Assembly (NCBI GenBank): GCA_018673255.1
Contig: JABHDC010000253.1
Location: 1 to 64,000 of the forward strand
Direction of reading: 5' to 3'
Length of the DNA stretch: 64,000 bases
Origin: Gemmatimonadota bacterium
GTDB taxonomy: Bacteria; Latescibacterota; UBA2968; UBA8231
The notes under the pieces were generated by a model. The model worked only from the letters and a program-made list of their open reading frames with translations. It searched no databases and was not told the origin of the DNA. Of this stretch, positions 31,734-41,352 are shown piece after piece. The stretch's first letter is position 1. Each line of letters opens with the position of its first letter. The position numbers and the translations under genes are program-made.

Positions 31734-32516
31734 TCAGTCCCTCGGGGCGTCTGTAAAGCGAACCGTCACACCACCGTCAGGTGAGCCATCGGTGGACCTG
31801 ATGTGGAAGATTCCCGGGCCATCAATCTTCAGGCCCATGAAGGCTTCTTTGCCCATGCTGGTGTCGAAGATGGGCGTGCCATCTTCGGCGACGATCTCGA
31901 AGGCGATCTCACCACGCAATGCTTCCAGACCAAAGCAACCGGCGGCGCGACCATCGGGCAGGCTGATGGCTTGCGTACCAAAGCCCGGCATGTTGCAGAT
32001 GGTGCGGAAGACCAGATTGCCTTCGCGGTCGCCGCACGGGATCCCCTCGGCCTGCGGGTCCTGCTCGTTCTCGCGCAGAGTGTCGGAGCACTCCGGAGCC
32101 AACGGCAGATCGGCCAGGTCGCCTTCGCCTTCCATCAGAATACCGCCACCCCCCATGGGATCACCCATCGGGTCGCCCATGGGATCCATCATCATGCCCT
32201 CTTCACCGTGCATGGGCGGAGGGGGTATGTGTGCAGCGCGTACCCAGGGCTGGAACTCGTCGAAATCGATGGCGCCATCGCCATTGGCATCCATCAGCTG
32301 GAAGAACTTCTCGACCATCATGTCTTCCATCTCTTCGGGAGCCATGCCTTCCGGCGGCGGTCCTTCCATGTCGCCAGGAGGCGGTTCGAAACCCTCTGGG
32401 GGGCCAAGAACGATTTCCGGATGCATCGGGGGCTCGCCTTCCATGTGGTGGTCGGCCAGCACAGGCGCTGCCAGAACGGCCAGCAATGCCAGAGAAAGCG
32501 TGAGCTTGCGGATCAT
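31734..32516 (-). CDS. Exported EF-hand protein with Met/Gly/Pro-rich linker
   Basis: This 260-aa protein has a signal peptide (LTLSLALLAVLAAPVLA). A Pro/Glu/Met-rich stretch follows, and then one perfect EF-hand loop at residues 76-87 (DANGDGAIDFDE), which should bind calcium. After it comes a Met-rich segment with tandem GDPM units (about 105-125). The C-terminal half contains two Cys pairs and reads like a small beta domain (GNLVFRTICNMPGFG, AAGCFGLEALRGE, GIFHIRSTDGSP). The ATG at 32516 follows GGAGG at good distance. No named family is recognised beyond the EF-hand. Met-rich stretches sometimes bind copper; that is only a possibility here. Confidence 0.72.
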   Translation of the reverse strand: MIRKLTLSLALLAVLAAPVLADHHMEGEPPMHPEIVLGPPEGFEPPPGDMEGPPPEGMAPEEMEDMMVEKFFQLMDANGDGAIDFDEFQPWVRAAHIPPPPMHGEEGMMMDPMGDPMGDPMGGGGILMEGEGDLADLPLAPECSDTLRENEQDPQAEGIPCGDREGNLVFRTICNMPGFGTQAISLPDGRAAGCFGLEALRGEIAFEIVAEDGTPIFDTSMGKEAFMGLKIDGPGIFHIRSTDGSPDGGVTVRFTDAPRD

Positions 32517-32922
32517 GAGTGTGCTCCTCCAAGGGCTGGGTGATGGCATGTCAGCGGCAGAATAGAGGGCGAGCAGATGTCCGCTCACCAACTGGGTCTT
32601 TCAGTTCGTTGCATGGTAAGATGGCGAAAAAACTGGCGAATGCTGTGAGAATCCTCACAAGACGCAAATGGACAGATTATCGCCAGACCTCCATATATAC
32701 GAATTCGTGCAGCGATTCCCAAGAAGAACGCCTTACCCTCCATGATGTTTCAACTGGATGAATCTTCATTAACTCACTGTCAAAGCTTCACTTACGGATC
32801 CGGCACTTTGCGATGGGCGAAATCGCCCCGTACATTTGGACACGCAAGCAAGGTACTGCAGGCCGCCCGCTGTGCGGCCATCCGTTCCTCAATATCAGCA
32901 CACAACCGAAAGCGGAATTCTC
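32517..32922. other. Divergent intergenic region, relatively A/T-rich
   Basis: About 400 bases separate the EF-hand gene (minus) from aroC (plus) and should contain promoters for both. The stretch 32590-32780 is A/T-richer than the rest of the window. A short palindrome TGTGAG-AATC-CTCACA lies at 32644-32659. I could not assign a -10/-35 pair with confidence and saw no RNA gene. Confidence 0.4.
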
Positions 32923-34167
32923 GTGGAATTGCTCGGTGGATCCTGCTTTGCCGTAGCGGGTGCCGGTGAGTCGCACGGTCCTGGCATCACCACCATCGTC
33001 TCCGGCTGTCCCGCTGGTCTGCGTCTGTCCCGCAGCGATCTGCAGCAGCAATTGGATCGCCGCCGCCCGGGCAGTAGCAAACTGGGTACGCCGCGCCGCG
33101 AAGGTGACAAGGTCGTCATTCTGAGCGGGTTGTACGATGATGACCACGATACACTTCTGGGCAGCGCCGAGGTCTCAACCCGCGTCGATGATGACGAGAC
33201 ACGGGTTGCTGGCTACGAGACGGGATGGACCACGGGCGAACCGATCGCAGCGATTGTTTTGTCGGCGGCGAAGCGTTCAGCTGACTACGATCAGTTCCTC
33301 GGTGCCACGGGCGATGTGCGACCCGGTCATGCGGACCTGGTCAAATACCACAAGTCGATGGGATTCACCGATCCGCGGGGCGGGGGAAGAACCTCCTTCC
33401 GTTCCATGATCAGTGATGTCATCGGCGGTACTGTGGCCCGACGCTTCCTGGCCGAGCGATTCGGGACCTTCTTCCTATCTGCCATCTGTCAGGTCGGTGA
33501 GTTGCGTGCAGAGAAGTCGCTGTCCGATCTGGTGGCATCCAGTGATGACCCCCATGATCTGAGGTCGCTGCAGCAGCGACTCTGTGAGGCAGAACTGCCT
33601 GCCACAGACGATGGATTTGCCGAGGAAGCGTCACGACTGATCACGCAGACGCGCAAGGAGGGTGATTCCCTGGGCGCCATGCTCGAGATCGTCGGCGTAC
33701 ATGTGCCGGCCCTGGCAGGTGAACCACTCTACAACAGTCTGAAGATGAGGCTCATGGGCAGCCTTGGCGGTCTGAATGCGGTCCAGTCCTGTGAGATGGG
33801 CTCCGGCCAGGCGTCGGTGTCCCGCCACGGGAGCGAGCACAACGATCCCATTCGGCAGGATGGTTATGCGACCAACCACCATGGTGGCTTGCTGGGGGGG
33901 ATCACGACCGGGTCACCCCTCGTTTTCCGGGTAGGCTTTAAGCCCACATCGACGATCACGGCCAGGCAGCCGTCGATCCGGAAGAACTTCGAAGAGATCG
34001 ATTTTCAGCTGGGCAAGGGACGTCACGATCCCTGTGTCGGGGTCCGTGCCGGCGTCGCCCTCGAATCACGGATGGCGATCGAGGTGATGGATGCCGTCCT
34101 CGCCCACCAGTCAGGTCGCGTCGATCCGGATGCATTCAGGCTTTTTGGTGATGGAGAGCAGGCATGA
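32923..34167 (+). CDS. aroC: Chorismate synthase
   Basis: This 414-aa enzyme converts EPSP to chorismate, the last common step of aromatic biosynthesis, using reduced FMN. It has the signatures GESHGPG near the start, RPGHADLVKYHKSMGFTDPRGGGRTS, SEHNDPIRQDGYATNHHGG and KPTSTI. Length is slightly above the usual 360-390. I use the GTG at 32923, which puts GESHG near residue 16 as in homologues; the frame is open upstream with no match. Its TGA overlaps the ATG of the dehydratase-like gene, so the two are cotranscribed. No other aro genes are in the window. Confidence 0.92.
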   Translation: MELLGGSCFAVAGAGESHGPGITTIVSGCPAGLRLSRSDLQQQLDRRRPGSSKLGTPRREGDKVVILSGLYDDDHDTLLGSAEVSTRVDDDETRVAGYETGWTTGEPIAAIVLSAAKRSADYDQFLGATGDVRPGHADLVKYHKSMGFTDPRGGGRTSFRSMISDVIGGTVARRFLAERFGTFFLSAICQVGELRAEKSLSDLVASSDDPHDLRSLQQRLCEAELPATDDGFAEEASRLITQTRKEGDSLGAMLEIVGVHVPALAGEPLYNSLKMRLMGSLGGLNAVQSCEMGSGQASVSRHGSEHNDPIRQDGYATNHHGGLLGGITTGSPLVFRVGFKPTSTITARQPSIRKNFEEIDFQLGKGRHDPCVGVRAGVALESRMAIEVMDAVLAHQSGRVDPDAFRLFGDGEQA

Positions 34168-36842
34168 CAGCCTTGAGCTTTGATGAAGTCGGTCGTCTGC
34201 CGGCTGACGGTGACAATGTGGCTATCGCGATCCAACGTCTGGAGGCGGGTACCCTGGTGCACCTCGCTTCCGGCGACACTCAGCTATCTCACACGATCCT
34301 CGAGGGACATCGCTTCGCCGTGGCAGGCATCGCCGCGGGGGAGTCGCTGCTCTCGTGGGGACTGCCCTTTGGTGTCGCGCTTCGGGCCATTGCGCCCGGT
34401 GAATACGTGACCAATCCTGGTATGCTGGAGGCACTGGGCGGTCGGGCCATCGATTTCGAGTTGCCTGGCGTCCCGAACTTTGAGGACCGCGTCGTGCCTT
34501 ACGTGCTGGATGAAGCGAGTTTCGAGGTGGCCGCGGCACTGCCTCTGCGAACGGATGCGCCCACCTTCCGTGGATTTGATCGCGGGAAGCGTGGCGTCGG
34601 TACGCGCAATCACATTGTCGTGCTGGGGACGACGTCTCGTACTGCGGCATTTGCCAGACAGTTGGCAGCGCGTTGCAGCGATCTGCCGACGGGTGACCAC
34701 TTCGACGGTGTCGTCGCCGTGGCGCACACCGAAGGTGGCGGTCACCAGGCACCCAACAATCGGGATCTGTTGCTGCGCACGTTGTCGGGGTTTGCCACTC
34801 ATCCCAACGTCGGGGCTGTCCTGGCAGTTGACTACGGCAGCGAGGCTGTGACCAACGTCCAGTTGCAGAATGAGCTGCGGACGCGCGGATGCGACACGGG
34901 TGACATGCCGATGGCTTTTCTGTCGATCGATGGTGCATACGATTCGGTCCTGGACCGGGCTGAGTGTCAGATCCGTGAATGGGTAGCCCCCGTGTCGGCC
35001 ATCGAGCGCGTCGAGCGGGGCGCAGGAGATCTGAAACTGGCGCTGCAGTGCGGTGGCTCGGATGCCTTCTCCGGCGTATCGGGGAATCCCTTGGCCGCCT
35101 GGGTGGCGCGTGAGTTGATCCGCTGCGGCGGAGCGGCCAATCTGGCTGAGACCGACGAACTCATCGGTGCCGAACCCTACGTGCTCGACAAAGTCGCAGA
35201 CGTCGACACGGCGAGGCGATTCCTTGAGATGGTCGCTCGCTTCAAGGCCCGCGCCGCCGATCACGGGACGTCCGCAGAGGGGAATCCCTCGGGCGGTAAC
35301 AAGTATCGTGGCCTGTACAACATCGTCTTGAAGTCCATCGGGGCAGCGATGAAGCGCCACCCGGATGTCAGACTGGATGGATGTCTGGAGTATTCCGAAC
35401 CGATTCCGGCGCCGGGCTACTACTTCATGGACAGCCCGGGCAATGACCTGGAGTCCATCGCCGGCCAGGTCGCCTCGGGATGCAATCTGATCTACTTCGT
35501 GACCGGCAATGGATCGATCACGAATTTCCCCTTCGTGCCGACACTCAAACTGCTCACGACGACGGCACGTTTCGAGTTGCTCCGTGAAGACATGGACGTC
35601 AATGCTGGTGCCTATCAGGACGGCGCGTCGATGGATGACCTCGGCCAGAGGCTGCTGGATCTCAGCCTGCGCGTTTCCTCCGGCGAACGGAGTCGGGGCG
35701 AGGCGGCCGGTCATTCGCAGGTGTCGATCTGGCGCGATTGGCCCCGTACTTCAGCAGCAGGGCTGGAACAGGCGCTGGATACGAAGGAGCCGGATGGCAG
35801 ACCACTGCTGCTGACGCCACCCACAGGTGATCCGGCACCGGTGGTCCAGCTGCATGGTTTTGACTCTCCAGCCGGCTTCCATCTTCAGCGGATCGGCTTG
35901 GTCATGCCCACCAGTCTCTGTTCGGGACAGGTGGCACGCATGGCAGCCGAGCGTCTGCAGTCAAGGCACGGCGATGGGGAGATTCGATACTGTGCCCTCG
36001 TTCATACCGAGGGCTGCGGTGTATCGAGTGGGCCGAATGAAGACATCTACTCCCGCTCTCTCATCGGATACCTCACGCATCCATCCGTTGAGCAGGCGCT
36101 GCTGATCGAGCATGGTTGCGAGAAGACGCACAATGACTACATGCGCGCCTGCTTCGAGGCAGCTGGGGTTGATGGATCTCAGTTCGGCTATGCGAGTGTG
36201 CAACTCGATGGTGGGATCGACCGGTCCCTGCAGGTCGTCGACGACTGGTTCGCCCAGGTGTCTCCCGTGGTATCCATGGCGACGGTCACCGATCTGTCGA
36301 GACTACGGCTCGGACTGCTGTCCGGTGGTGAGCTGTCAGATGTGGCTGCCAGGGCAGTGGCACGAGTGACGGCGTGGATCGTCGGCGCAGGTGGCACGGT
36401 TGTGACGCCCGAGGCAGATCCCCTGCTGAGTGCGCAGGGCTTCATCGATTATCTCGGGTTGGAAGCTGCGCCGTCGCCGACTCTGGCCCATGGCCAGATT
36501 GCTGCAGCCGGCTTTCACGTGATGGAGGCGCCCGGTAAGATCTGGACCGAGAGTGTCACCGGTCTGGGCGCGACCGGCGTTGATGTCATGCTGGCGCATG
36601 TGGGCGAGCACCCATTGCCGGGGCATCCGATGATCCCGCTGCTGCAGTGGACGAGTTCGCCGCAGGTGGCATCGCTGTTCAGTGACGATCTGGATGCACA
36701 GACCGAGGGTGATGGCGCTGATTGGCCCGAGCAACTGGTGCGGCTGATTGAAGCCATGTCGCGCCAGGAAGTGATGCCGCTGTCGTTGCGTGGCAATGCC
36801 GACTTCCAGATCACCCGCGGACCGCTGGGCGTTTCGATGTAG
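34164..36842 (+). CDS. Double-length altronate/galactarate dehydratase (UxaA)-like protein
   Basis: UxaA/GarD enzymes dehydrate sugar acids such as altronate and galactarate and are about 500 aa; this one is 892 aa. Residues 10-95 are an SAF-type domain. Residues 130-555 match UxaA with RGVGTRNHIVVLG, LQCGGSDAFSGVSGNPLA, NPSGGNKYRGL and GYYFMDSPGNDLES. From about 560 a second UxaA-like module begins (FHLQRIGLVMPTSLCSGQVA). The Cys motifs are split: module 1 has HTEGGG (about 187), DYGSEAV (about 223) and DMDVNAG, while module 2 keeps HTEGCG (about 614) and EHGCEKTHND (about 650) but has lost the CGGSDAFSG region. One active site may form from both halves. It is coupled to aroC. Substrate unknown. 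Confidence 0.8.
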   Translation: MTALSFDEVGRLPADGDNVAIAIQRLEAGTLVHLASGDTQLSHTILEGHRFAVAGIAAGESLLSWGLPFGVALRAIAPGEYVTNPGMLEALGGRAIDFELPGVPNFEDRVVPYVLDEASFEVAAALPLRTDAPTFRGFDRGKRGVGTRNHIVVLGTTSRTAAFARQLAARCSDLPTGDHFDGVVAVAHTEGGGHQAPNNRDLLLRTLSGFATHPNVGAVLAVDYGSEAVTNVQLQNELRTRGCDTGDMPMAFLSIDGAYDSVLDRAECQIREWVAPVSAIERVERGAGDLKLALQCGGSDAFSGVSGNPLAAWVARELIRCGGAANLAETDELIGAEPYVLDKVADVDTARRFLEMVARFKARAADHGTSAEGNPSGGNKYRGLYNIVLKSIGAAMKRHPDVRLDGCLEYSEPIPAPGYYFMDSPGNDLESIAGQVASGCNLIYFVTGNGSITNFPFVPTLKLLTTTARFELLREDMDVNAGAYQDGASMDDLGQRLLDLSLRVSSGERSRGEAAGHSQVSIWRDWPRTSAAGLEQALDTKEPDGRPLLLTPPTGDPAPVVQLHGFDSPAGFHLQRIGLVMPTSLCSGQVARMAAERLQSRHGDGEIRYCALVHTEGCGVSSGPNEDIYSRSLIGYLTHPSVEQALLIEHGCEKTHNDYMRACFEAAGVDGSQFGYASVQLDGGIDRSLQVVDDWFAQVSPVVSMATVTDLSRLRLGLLSGGELSDVAARAVARVTAWIVGAGGTVVTPEADPLLSAQGFIDYLGLEAAPSPTLAHGQIAAAGFHVMEAPGKIWTESVTGLGATGVDVMLAHVGEHPLPGHPMIPLLQWTSSPQVASLFSDDLDAQTEGDGADWPEQLVRLIEAMSRQEVMPLSLRGNADFQITRGPLGVSM

Positions 36843-36860: not shown

Positions 36861-37904
36861 CTAGTCGATCAGGGGCATCGTCACATTCATCTCGTCGGCC
36901 ACTTCGGCGATCTTCTCCCACACCATCTCGGGTAGATCGATGCCGGAGACCATGCGCTGCTGTCGTGTCTCTTCCTCGATCTCTCCAGGTGCGTAGATCT
37001 TGTCGACACCGGGTAGCGGACGGGCGGAGCAGACCCATTCAGCCAGGGCCTCGACTTCGTCCGTGTAGCTGTCCAGATCGGTGAAGGCGGAGATGTCGAT
37101 GGCGAGCACCATCACGCCACCACCACCGCCATCCTCCTTCGTACAGCCAGCGTGGGTCAGCGGGCCAACGAGCATTTCCACCATCATGGCGAGGCCGTGT
37201 CCCTTGTGACCAAATTGCCGCCCGCCGAGGGGAAGCACGCCTGTTGAGGTGTCGCGATACTGCTCGGCGTCGGTGACATCGTTGCCCTGCTGGTCGATGA
37301 GCCATCCCGGTGGCAAGGGCTCCCCCCGGATGATCTTCTGCTCGATTTTGCCCCCGGCGACAACGGTCATGGTCATGTCCAACATGAACGGGGGCTGGCC
37401 ATTTGCACGGGGGGCCGAGAAAGCGATCGGCTCCGGCCGTAAGCGGCGATCGGCACTGCCATGGGGGGCGAGGAACAGACCGCCCCCATTCAACCACACC
37501 ATACCGAGCATGCCCTGTGCGGCGATTCGGGGTGGATAATCGCCAAGACGACCTATGTGGCTGACCGATTTCAGGCCGATGAAGCCAAAGGTTGTGGTTC
37601 GGGCCTTCTCGATAGCGAGGTCGACGGCCCGCGTCACGGCGACGATGCCATTGCCACCCTTGCCGTCGTAGAGTGCGATCGCTGGGTTCTCGCGAATGAG
37701 ATCTCGATCTTCCCAGGGGATATAACCCTTCTTCATGGAACGGGCGTAACTCGGCAGAAACCAGGTGCCGTGGGAATCATGGCCGAGGAGGTGGCTGTCG
37801 ACGAGATGGTCGGCGACAATTCGGGCATCATCGTCGGGGATACCGGTAGCGGAGAAGATGTCGACGGCCAACTGACGCAACACAGCCTGGGGGACGATCG
37901 GCAT
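36861..37904 (-). CDS. Ldh_2 family (malate/L-lactate/ureidoglycolate-type) dehydrogenase
   Basis: This 347-aa NAD(P)-dependent oxidoreductase belongs to the malate/L-lactate dehydrogenase type 2 family, which reduces 2-keto acids or related compounds. It shows the family signature LLGHDSHGTWFLPSY near residue 40, SHIGRLGDYPPRIAAQG, FMLDMTMTVVAGGKI, and the Gly-rich PLGGRQFGHKGHGLAMMVE. Length is normal. GAGGAG precedes the ATG. It is the last gene of a minus-strand run with the ceramidase-like gene and carA and converges on the UxaA-like gene. Substrate unknown; a role in sugar-acid breakdown with the UxaA-like protein is possible but unproven. Confidence 0.87.
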   Translation of the reverse strand: MPIVPQAVLRQLAVDIFSATGIPDDDARIVADHLVDSHLLGHDSHGTWFLPSYARSMKKGYIPWEDRDLIRENPAIALYDGKGGNGIVAVTRAVDLAIEKARTTTFGFIGLKSVSHIGRLGDYPPRIAAQGMLGMVWLNGGGLFLAPHGSADRRLRPEPIAFSAPRANGQPPFMLDMTMTVVAGGKIEQKIIRGEPLPPGWLIDQQGNDVTDAEQYRDTSTGVLPLGGRQFGHKGHGLAMMVEMLVGPLTHAGCTKEDGGGGGVMVLAIDISAFTDLDSYTDEVEALAEWVCSARPLPGVDKIYAPGEIEEETRQQRMVSGIDLPEMVWEKIAEVADEMNVTMPLID

Positions 37905-37965: not shown

Positions 37966-39432
37966 TCAGCCTATCTCTGCGACAGGACGCTCGTCCATGC
38001 CCCACGTCAGCAGGCGCTCGGAGATCGCTTCCTCCAGGGCCTCCAGACAGCCAGGTGCGAGCGTGGCGACTTCCTCCTGATAGAGGCCGATGCCGTAGCG
38101 CTCGCGGGGTAGCATGTACGATTGAGACATGTTGCACAGCTCAATGATGAGCAGGGGAGTACCAGGAAAGCGGCGACGCAGATTCTGCTGCAACTGCTGA
38201 TACGGTTCGCCGCCCAGCATCACCCAGACACACTCGCCGATCTGCCACATCCACACGGTGACGTCGACGTGTGATGTGCCGGACGGGATCGCCTGGACCT
38301 TGCGCAGCATTCGCCGGCAACGCTCCACCCGCGCACGGCACTCGCGCACTGTCTCTGTCACTGTCTCATCGTCGGCTTCGGCCTGTTGCTGCCGCTGCAG
38401 CCAGGAATCGATGTCAGCCTCGATCTGTTCGACGGTGGGCAGGTCGATGATTGGCAGGGACAGATCAACGGTCTCGCTGCGGAAGCAATCGACGGGGCGC
38501 GAGGCATCCGGTGCCGCCCAGGACCAGACGCCGACGGTGGCACCCGAGACGATGGGATGTTCGTAGGTGAGTTGACGGCCAGCAGGTGGCATGCCTTCGA
38601 GGGTCGACAACACGGCGTGTCCCAGCTGGCGACCATTGCGGTCGGCAACCGCTGGATCTCCGACGAAACCTTCTGCCGGGCCGAGATTGCCGGCTGCCCC
38701 TTGCAGGAACAGGCAGGTCGCCGGCGAGTGCTGTTCGACCAACTCGCGCATGGCGCCGATATAGTCGGGGCTGATCAGCCGATTGCCCCAGGCCAATGTC
38801 GTCGGATGACAGGCGTAGTTTGCCAGCACGAGGCGGGCCCCCTGCTCTGTGTCGGCGCGCAGGACGATGAGAGTGTCGTCCGATTCTCCTTCAGGATTCG
38901 GGCCGCACACGAACATATCCCGCTCTTCGTCGCGGAAATCACGCTCCACGGCCAGGTCACAGTGGCCACGACCGACACTGATGTCGACAGGAGACAGGTT
39001 GGATCGGGCTTGCTCAAAGGCTTGCAAGCAGAGGCCAGGCAGGGCGTCCAGATAGGGGGCGATATGCTCGCCCCCCGGCTCCTGCGCCCGTTCACGATCG
39101 AGATTGATGGAGGCGTGGGTGTGCGAGAAGGTGACGATCAGTTGGTGTGGTGCACGACCGGTCCCGGCGGCCAGCGACGACAGCACGTCGTCCATCTCCG
39201 TGTCGCGCATCCAGCCCAGGTCCAGGCCGAAGAGCACGTGAAGATTCTCAGGATCGTCGACAGGGGCGATGCACAGGCAGGTGGCCATCAAGGGCCGGTG
39301 GATGCCTTCAGCCTGGTCGTGGAGTGCCGCGCCCCAGTTGCGGTGATACGCGTCGGCCGGCGGCGTGATGTCGATGCGGCCGATTCCCAGCTGACAGCGG
39401 CCGAGGGCAGTGTGCAGAGTCGGCGTCGGCAT
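37966..39432 (-). CDS. Neutral/alkaline ceramidase-like hydrolase
   Basis: This 488-aa protein resembles the N-terminal zinc domain of neutral ceramidases and related hydrolases. It has GIGRIDITPP at the start, VTFSHTHASIN near residue 100 with the zinc-type His residues, LANYACHPTTLAW near 205, and LFLQGAAGNLGP near 245. True ceramidases hydrolyse the amide of ceramide; the many bacterial relatives lacking the C-terminal domain have unknown substrates. No signal peptide is evident with the ATG at 39432. The frame continues upstream into carA without a likely start. Confidence 0.78.
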   Translation of the reverse strand: MPTPTLHTALGRCQLGIGRIDITPPADAYHRNWGAALHDQAEGIHRPLMATCLCIAPVDDPENLHVLFGLDLGWMRDTEMDDVLSSLAAGTGRAPHQLIVTFSHTHASINLDRERAQEPGGEHIAPYLDALPGLCLQAFEQARSNLSPVDISVGRGHCDLAVERDFRDEERDMFVCGPNPEGESDDTLIVLRADTEQGARLVLANYACHPTTLAWGNRLISPDYIGAMRELVEQHSPATCLFLQGAAGNLGPAEGFVGDPAVADRNGRQLGHAVLSTLEGMPPAGRQLTYEHPIVSGATVGVWSWAAPDASRPVDCFRSETVDLSLPIIDLPTVEQIEADIDSWLQRQQQAEADDETVTETVRECRARVERCRRMLRKVQAIPSGTSHVDVTVWMWQIGECVWVMLGGEPYQQLQQNLRRRFPGTPLLIIELCNMSQSYMLPRERYGIGLYQEEVATLAPGCLEALEEAISERLLTWGMDERPVAEIG

Positions 39433-39443
39433 CAGTGGTCGCC

Positions 39444-40550
39444 TTACGCCGAGTGACGCTGCATCAGTTCGGCGAAATAGCCGAACAGGTGATCGCTGTC
39501 GTGCGGCCCGGGAGATGCTTCCGGGTGACACTGAATCGAGAAGATTGGCCGCTGGCGATGCTGGAAACCTTCCACGCAGCCATCGTTGAGATTGTTGCGA
39601 GTGACTTCCAGCACATCCGGCAGGCTGTCACCCTTGACGCCCCATCCGTGGTTTTCCGACGTGATCAGGATGCGGTCGGAGGCGTGTTCCTTGATAGGCT
39701 GGTTGGCGCCACGATGGCCGAACTTCAGCTTGTAGATCTCGGCACCGAAGGCCAGGCCGAGGATTTCGTGGCCCAGGCAGATGCCGAACATCGGCAGATC
39801 GGCGGTCTCGATGAGCTGCCGTGTCGTGGCGATCGCATAATCGAGGGGGCGAGGATCACCGGGACCATTGGACAGGAAGATCCCGTCCGGCTTGTGAGCC
39901 AGTGCCTCCTGCGCGCTGGTCCTGGCGGGCACGACCGTCACACGGCAGCCGGCTTCGACAAGCTTGCGGACGATGCTCCGCTTGATGCCAAAGTCATAGG
40001 CCACCACGTGGGCACGCGCTTCTGACTCGGGCTCGACCACATAGGTCTCTTCACACGTGACCTCTCCGGCCATGTCCCTGCCCTCAAGGCCCTCCCATGC
40101 ACGGGCCCGCTCGACCAAGGCTTCAGGATCTGTCTCGGTTGTGGAGACGGCGGCATTCATCGCGCCTTCGGTGCGCACGTGGCGGACCAGCTGGCGTGTG
40201 TCGATGTCTTCGACGCCGATGACACCGTGCTCCTCCATGTATTCGACCAGCCCGCTTGTGGCGCGCTGATTCGATGGCCGACGACAGCACTGTTTCATGA
40301 CAAAGGCACGCACGTGCGGCCTCGAGGACTCATCATCCTCGGGTGTGACACCGTAGTTGCCAATGTGCGGGTAGGTCATCGTGACCATCTGGCCAGCATA
40401 AGAGGGATCGGTGAGGATCTCCTGGTAGCCGGTCATACTGGTATTGAAGACCATCTCACCAAAGACCTCGCCGCTGCCGGCGACACAGTGGCCTTGGAAG
40501 GTGGTTCCATCGGCGAGGGCGATCAGGGCGGGGCGAGTCGGCGGCGTCAT
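39444..40550 (-). CDS. carA: Carbamoyl-phosphate synthase small (glutaminase) subunit
   Basis: This 368-aa subunit hydrolyses glutamine and passes ammonia to CarB for carbamoyl phosphate, the entry to pyrimidines and arginine. The N-terminal domain has GEMVFNTSMTGYQEILTDPS. The class I glutaminase has the nucleophile in MFGICLGHEILGLAFG, ENHGWGV, and the His-Glu pair in SIQCHPEASPGP. The ATG at 40550 aligns with family starts; an upstream in-frame ATG at 40661 would run into the terminator of the SWIB gene. carB is not in this window. Confidence 0.93.
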   Translation of the reverse strand: MTPPTRPALIALADGTTFQGHCVAGSGEVFGEMVFNTSMTGYQEILTDPSYAGQMVTMTYPHIGNYGVTPEDDESSRPHVRAFVMKQCCRRPSNQRATSGLVEYMEEHGVIGVEDIDTRQLVRHVRTEGAMNAAVSTTETDPEALVERARAWEGLEGRDMAGEVTCEETYVVEPESEARAHVVAYDFGIKRSIVRKLVEAGCRVTVVPARTSAQEALAHKPDGIFLSNGPGDPRPLDYAIATTRQLIETADLPMFGICLGHEILGLAFGAEIYKLKFGHRGANQPIKEHASDRILITSENHGWGVKGDSLPDVLEVTRNNLNDGCVEGFQHRQRPIFSIQCHPEASPGPHDSDHLFGYFAELMQRHSA

Positions 40551-40740: not shown

Positions 40741-41352
40741 TTACTTCAGGTGCTTGTTGACGAGTTTGATCATCTCAAACATACTGACCTGCTTCTTCCC
40801 ACCAAAGATGTTCCGAAGCTTCTCGTCGGCGTTGATCATGCGCCGATTCTGCGTGTCCTGCAGGTTGTTCTTCTTGATGTAAGCCCACAGCTTCTTGACG
40901 ACCTGTGTGCGAGGCAGCGGCTTGCCACCTACAACAACCCCGAGGGCTGTGTCCGGCTGAAGCGGACGCATGAACGAGGGATTGGGCTTACGCTTTACCT
41001 TCTTATCTTTTTTTTTTGCCGCTGTCTTCTTAGCGGCAGGCTTCTTTGCGACAACCTTCTTGGCGGCTGCCTTCTTTTTCGGTGCGGCTTTCTTGGCTGC
41101 GGCCTTCTTCGGTGCGGCCTTCTTCACCGTCTTCTTAGCTGCTGCCTTCTTCACCGTCTTCTTGGCTGCTGCCTTTTTCACCGTCTTCTTAGCTGCTGCC
41201 TTCTTCACCGTCTTCTTGGCTGCGGGCTTCTTCTTCGCGACAACCTTCTTCTTGGCGGCTGCCTTCTTCTTCGGTGCCGTCTTCTTCGCCGCAGTCTTCT
41301 TCGGTGCGGCCTTCTTGGCCACCTTCTTCTTTGCGGCCTTCTTCTTCGCCAT
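40741..41352 (-). CDS. SWIB/MDM2-domain protein with histone-H1-like Lys/Ala-rich tail
   Basis: This 203-aa protein has two parts. Residues 1-120 are almost only Lys, Ala, Pro, Thr and Val ([18 protein letters not shown] and similar) and include four tandem AAAKKTVKK units. This is like the C-terminal tail of histone H1 and bacterial H1-like proteins, which bind DNA without sequence preference. Residues 125-203 form a SWIB domain ([52 protein letters not shown]), a fold named after chromatin-remodelling subunits and also found in Chlamydiae and some other bacteria. AAGGAG precedes the ATG. A monocistronic unit with its own terminator suggests an abundant nucleoid protein; that is inference. 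Confidence 0.92.
41117..41224. repeat. Four tandem 27-bp repeats inside the SWIB gene
   Basis: Units start at 41117, 41144, 41171 and 41198 and are nearly identical (alternating ttag/ttgg at one position and one ttttt variant). Each encodes nine residues of the basic tail. Such runs can change copy number by slippage, so tail length may differ between strains. Confidence 0.85.

Follow-up and report, generated by a model that had tools for sequence, protein, structure and literature searches.

A duplicated UxaA/GarD-type dehydratase whose four proposed iron-site cysteines are divided between two modules

A 64,000-nucleotide stretch of DNA from a Gemmatimonadota bacterium (assembly GCA_018673255.1, contig JABHDC010000253.1, positions 1 to 64,000), referred to here as the window, encodes a UxaA/GarD-type dehydratase in which the catalytic module is present twice. 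In this protein and its relatives, which we call doubles, the four cysteines proposed to form the iron site of the superfamily are split 3+1: module 2 has those of sites 1 to 3, and module 1 has that of site 4. The partition is complementary and conserved in the proteins compared. Judging from the sequences, the double is quite likely a fused pseudo-dimer in which the two halves share a single active site, formed by the DC domain of module 1 and the cysteine face of the D2 domain of module 2. A 3+1 split of proposed ligands in some 300 sequences from several phyla marks them as residues of one site. The geometry of the UxaA/GarD iron site is unsettled in the available parts of the open literature, hence the value of a natural split.

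Division of the proposed iron-site cysteines

According to PMC6336799, all of the superfamily but SuyAB has four conserved cysteines, which are proposed to hold one iron. We equated them by order and spacing with the motifs TSC, HTxGC, GCE and CGGSD (sites 1 to 4). An initial annotation of the window had left it to be checked whether these cysteines are ligands, and the proposed iron site provides part of the answer.

Pfam recognizes GD_AH_second in two stretches of the double and GD_AH_C at residues 289 to 526, with the SAF domain scoring slightly below its cut-off. The second half was assigned to the same superfamily by hhalign and by its fold, which answers in the negative a test set beforehand of whether this half might be an unrelated family. 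The double has the N-terminal SAF domain and the combination of GD_AH_second and GD_AH_C found in the UxaA/GarD superfamily (COG2721). COG2721 also places the four cysteines within one catalytic module, and here neither module is complete, the two jointly holding the exact set. Because neither module holds all four, the double is a variant of the superfamily and not an ordinary member. It has two PDB sequence matches at E <= 0.001, GarD (6u7l, E 1.1e-36) and the SAF fragment 3k3s. Its sole match among the NCBIfam models, galactarate dehydratase (TIGR03248), reaches 168.2 bits and falls far below the equivalog cut-off of 730.85.

D2 of module 1 is without the three D2 cysteines (R159, G192 and S226) and without the glutamine (S254), and it retains G137, R140, G146, R148, N149, N215 and R282. 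DC of the same module carries the motifs CGGSDAFSG, with C296, NPSGGN, MDSPGND and TGNGSITNF. In module 2, D2 carries TSLC586, HTEGC618G, EHGC652EKTHND and Q680, and in DC the CGGSDAFSG motif is replaced by SGGELSD and the segment around NPSPGNK is absent. Pfam and the alignment thus bear out the initial annotation, which had placed SAF, CGGSDAFSG and MDSPG in module 1 and HTEGCG and EHGCEKTHND in module 2, and had noted the loss of CGGSDAFSG from the latter. Two of the three cysteine motifs that it listed as changed in module 1 (HTEGGG and DYGSEA) are indeed lost. The third, DMDVNAG, is not a lost cysteine motif, since alanine occupies that position in UxaA, GarD and 34 of 37 single-module proteins, and the loss at TSLC/TTSR had been missed.

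The 305 distinct doubles aligned are the best-scoring matches (the best 120 of 6664, the best 120 of 4311, and those from the loci surveyed), with more distant members lying outside; 120 proteins obtained with a module 2 query (P0121 to P0240) and 9 duplicates are excluded. The exact 3+1 pattern is present in 294 of them. The remaining 11 comprise five with an extra site 4 cysteine in module 2, one that is gapped there, and five truncated sequences that match the pattern as far as they extend. C296 is a cysteine in 303 of the 303 rows covering the position. Among 93 doubles with less than 80% identity, cysteines at sites 1 to 4 number 0, 0, 0 and 93 in module 1 and 93, 93, 93 and 4 in module 2. 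The corresponding numbers in 37 single-module proteins are 35, 35, 35 and 37; this set was thinned from 64 to less than 75% mutual identity, with 6 fragments excluded and E. coli UxaA and GarD included. The deviating sequences at sites 1 to 3 are L142, a frameshifted record that has its D2 in a different frame, and L159, which is divergent and adjoins a separate SAF open reading frame (ORF). The three module 2 cysteines are also invariant in a 61-row alignment (A3) that includes 18 of P0121 to P0240.

Table 1. Features of the double and of adjoining genes in the window
Feature	Coordinates	Strand	Remarks
Double UxaA/GarD-type dehydratase gene	34164..36842	+	892 aa; 305 distinct doubles aligned
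SAF (beta-clip) domain	34164..34499	+	aa 1-112; module 1 only
D2 of module 1	34563..35009	+	aa 134-282
R159, site 1, non-Cys, module 1	34638..34640	+	alignment
G192, site 2, non-Cys, module 1	34737..34739	+	alignment
S226, site 3, non-Cys, module 1	34839..34841	+	alignment
DC of module 1	35010..35744	+	aa 283-527; highest conservation of all domains
C296, site 4 Cys, module 1	35049..35051	+	alignment
Inter-module linker	35745..35843	+	aa 528-560; edges from Pfam and alignment, AlphaFold2 (AF2) secondary structure
D2 of module 2	35844..36278	+	aa 561-705
C586, site 1 Cys, module 2	35919..35921	+	alignment
C618, site 2 Cys, module 2	36015..36017	+	alignment
C652, site 3 Cys, module 2	36117..36119	+	alignment
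DC of module 2	36279..36839	+	aa 706-892; degenerate
S720, site 4, non-Cys, module 2	36321..36323	+	alignment
aroC (chorismate synthase), upstream	32836..34167	+	stop overlaps double start by 4 nt
Ldh_2 family dehydrogenase	36861..37904	-	convergent to double; neighbor in 7/73 loci including window

A predicted active site shared by the two modules

Other residues are divided as well. Among columns conserved in at least 85% of the single-module proteins, 28 DC columns are retained in module 1 alone, 0 in module 2 alone and 8 in both, and 13 are lost from both. For D2, 7 columns are retained in module 1 alone (the residues named above), 4 in module 2 alone (the three cysteines and Q680) and 5 in both, with 2 lost from both; the columns in neither list are partly kept. 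Retention differs between D2 and DC (Fisher p 0.004). The argument rests on the identity of the split residues, not on the count of losses. Positions conserved in at least 98% of doubles make up 41% of DC in module 1, 21% of D2 in module 2, 20% of SAF, 16% of D2 in module 1 and 7.5% of DC in module 2. If a single protomer supplied both the D2 and the DC of the active site, D2 of module 1 would have been free to drift in a protein that takes its cysteines from D2 of module 2. Its seven residues nevertheless show no change in any of the 301 to 303 rows covering them. Our interpretation is that the ancestral site was located at a dimer interface and used both D2 domains. The second domain of GarD reportedly forms the dimer interface.

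The initial annotation had called for a fold prediction of the full chain. The AF2 model of one chain (predicted template modeling score [pTM], 0.92) contains two GarD-like modules: the whole of module 1, together with its D2, can be matched to a single GarD chain over 447 residues, and module 2 matches GarD over 297 residues. Other structural matches, below GarD and SAF fragments, were weak or reflected common arrangements and were set aside.

These observations suggest an old in-frame tandem duplication of an Fe-dependent UxaA/GarD-type sugar-acid dehydratase. The double is predicted to fold as a pseudo-dimer of two GarD-like protomers, in which one of the two original active sites would survive. 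DC of module 1 would contribute Cys296 and the CGGSD, NPSGGN and MDSPGND loops, D2 of module 2 would contribute C586, C618, C652 and Q680, and D2 of module 1 probably adds R140, R148, N149, N215 and R282. The mirror-image site, made up of D2 of module 1 and DC of module 2, would be dead and structural. We infer that the contributed residues meet in space, that the surviving site is intramolecular at the pseudo-dimer interface, and hence acted in trans in the ancestral homodimer, and that it binds Fe and dehydrates an aldonate, which in some Paenibacillus may be L-fuconate or a similar compound. A shared-interface active site is what a natural 3+1 split predicts. Duplication followed by division of labor, with one site built from both halves, had been proposed in the initial annotation, and the cysteine partition and residue retention make it the best-supported reading.

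Residues specific to the doubles may bear on substrate specificity or catalysis. These are E649-H650, which precede C652 where single-module proteins have Gly-Leu, and R382, N386, N449, N454 and T466 in DC of module 1, which are invariant or nearly so in doubles and absent in single-module proteins.

The composite site could also be formed between the two chains of a homodimer, or D2 of module 2 could be swapped into cis beside DC of module 1. Sequence cannot discriminate between an intra-chain and an inter-chain site, and coevolution gave no decision. We nevertheless consider both arrangements improbable, given the pTM obtained for a single chain, the fit of module 1 with its own D2 to one GarD chain, and the retention in D2 of module 1 of seven family-conserved residues that would be needless in a displaced domain. 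Slightly less probable still is that DC of module 1 is catalytic without cysteines and that module 2 is regulatory or structural, its three cysteines holding a separate center such as an iron-sulfur cluster or Zn. This would agree with the conservation of DC in module 1, by far the highest, with the capacity of three cysteines to hold a cluster without C296, and with the ambiguous electron paramagnetic resonance (EPR) data in PMC6336799. Against it, C296 is present in every row covering the position and is equivalent to the fourth cysteine of single-module proteins, and Q680 accompanies the cysteines into module 2. A regulatory role for one half, which the initial annotation had offered as an alternative, is less likely, since module 2 has three of the four cysteines in every row covering them.

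Distribution, origin and gene neighborhood

By record titles, doubles occur in Gemmatimonadetes, Latescibacterota, Chloroflexi (Caldilineaceae and Anaerolineae), Poribacteria, Paenibacillus and other Bacillota, Trueperaceae, Entotheonella, Acidobacteria and others. In a quick unrooted tree of the 37 single-module proteins (frameshifted L142 included) and 16 module pairs, the single-module proteins, the first modules and the second modules are each separated (Shimodaira-Hasegawa-like approximate likelihood ratio test support of 98, 99 and 100). The tree fits one old duplication and fusion.

Module-2-sized queries (P0164 and P0219) gave matches in 4/400, 42/296, 29/298 and 7/158 genomes of four taxon samples that overlap in part, and no split two-gene form was established in these samples. 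Apart from three, the matches are all in frames of at least 865 aa, one of which, in the 158-genome sample, has an internal TGA. Of the three in short frames, all from the 298-genome sample, G816 starts at a contig edge, judging by its coordinates, and G922 (L164) ends at one. The third, G924 (L165:3863-4168), is an isolated 115-residue stretch resembling D2 of module 2, with no contig edge and no adjoining module 1; it sits 1.3 kb from a 136-base N run and is perhaps a decayed copy. L142, a candidate split form with a single module of the module 1 pattern, was rejected because the record is frameshifted and its SAF and D2 are encoded in a different frame. Eight genomes of the 298-genome sample (G858, G870, G879, G906, G931, G939, G947 and G955) each have a pair of module 2 matches, located in different long frames and one of them more distant, and the double family therefore has paralogues. 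Four database proteins of module 2 size (P0164, P0201, P0219 and P0147) start near the module boundary; they may be fragments, proteins with wrongly called starts or a true split form. In seven loci (L148, L149, L150, L153, L156, L159 and L162), a single UxaA-like catalytic ORF has its SAF domain in a separate, overlapping ORF immediately upstream, which makes these two-gene forms; the L159 protein is without the first three cysteines.

That the double is an assembly or gene-calling artifact, or a decaying gene, has a negligible probability. Many records are contigs of metagenome-assembled genomes, some database proteins are of module 2 size only, and the L165 stretch stands isolated in its genome, but architecture and pattern are the same in 294 of the 305 doubles, among them two from records titled complete genome (L061 and L072).

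Neighborhoods were surveyed in 73 loci (72 plus the window) by annotating cluster representatives rather than each gene. An aldo-keto reductase (AKR) gene lies within 300 bp of the double in 26 loci. In five Paenibacillus loci (L042, L045, L047, L050 and L075), the double heads a gene run in which, besides the AKR, the 10 kb around it hold genes for a short-chain dehydrogenase/reductase (SDR), a FAH hydrolase and LutABC-like proteins, and a lactonase is also present in L042, L045 and L047. In the runs of these three loci, to which the search was confined, the double is the sole candidate dehydratase. The run resembles the non-phosphorylating L-fucose pathway, which leads to pyruvate and L-lactate by way of a dehydrogenase, a lactonase, a dehydratase (FucC), an SDR and a hydrolase (PMC11199699); a 2-keto-3-deoxy-L-fuconate (L-KDF) dehydrogenase of Paenibacillus ehimensis was measured in the same study. 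The AKR would be the sugar dehydrogenase, and LutABC would consume the lactate. This gene content suggests L-fuconate-type dehydration by the double in the five loci and makes it a candidate for the dehydratase step of an L-fucose-type route in some Paenibacillus. LutB scores above its own model cut-off. The lactonase stays below the cut-off of the L-fucono-1,5-lactonase model (286.9 bits in L074 and 201.7 in the L042 locus, versus 400), as does the FAH protein for the didehydro-rhamnonate hydrolase model (244.8 versus 500). As a marker in genomes of relatives, fucono-lactonase was uninformative, with matches in 10/10, none above the cut-off, this being a large amidohydrolase family. A tagaturonate reductase-like (UxaB) gene is near the double in 3/73 loci (L017, L071 and L074), which would fit altronate as the substrate in those lineages, and an enolase-superfamily gene is near it in 7/73.

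In the window, the neighbors of the double are aroC, Ldh_2, a ceramidase-like gene and carA, and no L-fucose pathway cluster (AKR, SDR, FAH, LutABC, lactonase) is present within +-10 kb. The ATG of the double shares four bases with the aroC stop; the true aroC start is probably downstream of 32836. This coupling, which the initial annotation had considered unusual, is real and recurs only in close relatives. Among loci L003 to L103, some of which are short upstream, aroC directly precedes the double with a four-base overlap (GTGA or TTGA) in L003, L004, L054 and L066 (L083 and L084 repeat L003 and L004) and with a short gap in L006, and in no others. The overlap is a lineage trait amid housekeeping genes, with little bearing on function.

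It is highly improbable that the substrate of the window enzyme is sulfolactate-like. SuyAB is a superfamily member (PMC6336799), and the Ldh_2 neighbor, found in 7/73 loci, matches the L-sulfolactate dehydrogenase model (E 2.2e-49, 168.5 bits versus a cut-off of 500). However, SuyAB is exempt from the four cysteines (PMC6336799), which the double retains, distributed over its two halves; Ldh_2 scores highest with malate/lactate/ureidoglycolate dehydrogenase (204.6 bits, likewise below the cut-off of 336); and the convergent Ldh_2 gene lies outside any shared operon. Adjoining Ldh_2 is the gene for a neutral ceramidase-like protein (37966-39531), which is near the double in 5/73 loci including the window. 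Elsewhere in the window, a SWIB domain protein (40741-41352) has an extended N-terminal part, rich in Lys and Ala, with weak similarity to histone H1-like HC2, and an EF-hand protein (31734-32591) has a low-complexity stretch of MGDP repeats.

The broader proposal is that the doubles are a separate, multi-phylum family of one-site pseudo-dimers, that their split shows the Fe site of the whole UxaA/GarD superfamily to be formed in trans across a dimer interface, one subunit giving three cysteines and its partner the fourth, and that the double is an L-fucose-type dehydratase in some Paenibacillus. We put its chances just short of even. Several observations weigh against the shared site or its proposed function. 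Site 4 cysteines are present in both DC domains of P0057, P0104, P0344, P0046 and P0091, and the L165 stretch has no module 1 beside it. Mutual avoidance of losses is not significant (Fisher p 0.62 for D2 and 0.09 for DC). Fifteen columns conserved in single-module proteins have disappeared from module 1 and module 2 alike (13 in DC and 2 in D2), so that the surviving site has changed too and is not simply the ancestral site divided. Coevolution analysis (299 doubles, effective number about 150) enriched within-domain pairs up to 4.7-fold and between-domain pairs hardly at all; D2 of module 1 with DC of module 1 was the only D2-DC pairing somewhat enriched throughout (1.3-1.4), compared with 0.95-1.25 for D2 of module 2 with DC of module 1. 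The EPR data in PMC6336799 leave the metal center open. AKR, SDR, FAH and LutABC genes occur jointly in only 5/73 loci, only 3 of these with the lactonase, and the neighbors in the window are mostly housekeeping genes.

Comparison with known systems

GarD, the galactarate dehydratase of E. coli (PDB 6U7L), has the same SAF, D2 and DC architecture and fold as the double but is a single module carrying all four cysteines. UxaA, the D-altronate dehydratase of E. coli, shares the domains and conserved motifs (30% identity to module 1); unlike the double, it is a single module and has Gly-Leu in place of E649-H650. In SuyAB and in the heteromeric L-fuconate dehydratase of Paraburkholderia mimosarum, the small subunit is presumably the SAF part. 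Both are superfamily members that consist of more than one polypeptide (PMC6336799), but they are heteromeric through separate genes and not a fused duplicate; SuyAB is exempt from the four cysteines, whereas the double fills all four sites between its modules. The same source reports that UxaA iron was examined by EPR and describes the D-arabinonate dehydratase C785_RS13685 of Herbaspirillum huttiense, a superfamily member with the proposed four-cysteine Fe site, in which, in contrast to the double, all four cysteines are on one single-module chain. For FucD, an L-fuconate dehydratase of Xanthomonas (PMC6336799, PMC13406643), the reaction is the one proposed here from gene context, but the protein belongs to a different superfamily, the enolase superfamily. 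A fused or duplicated UxaA is undescribed in the available parts of the open-licence literature searched, including PMC6336799, PMC11199699 (its Figure 1C, on gene clusters, lying outside the search), PMC11775122 and PMC13406643. Proteins of ~900 aa that carry the label "altronate dehydratase" or "UxaA family hydrolase" may therefore represent a separate enzyme.

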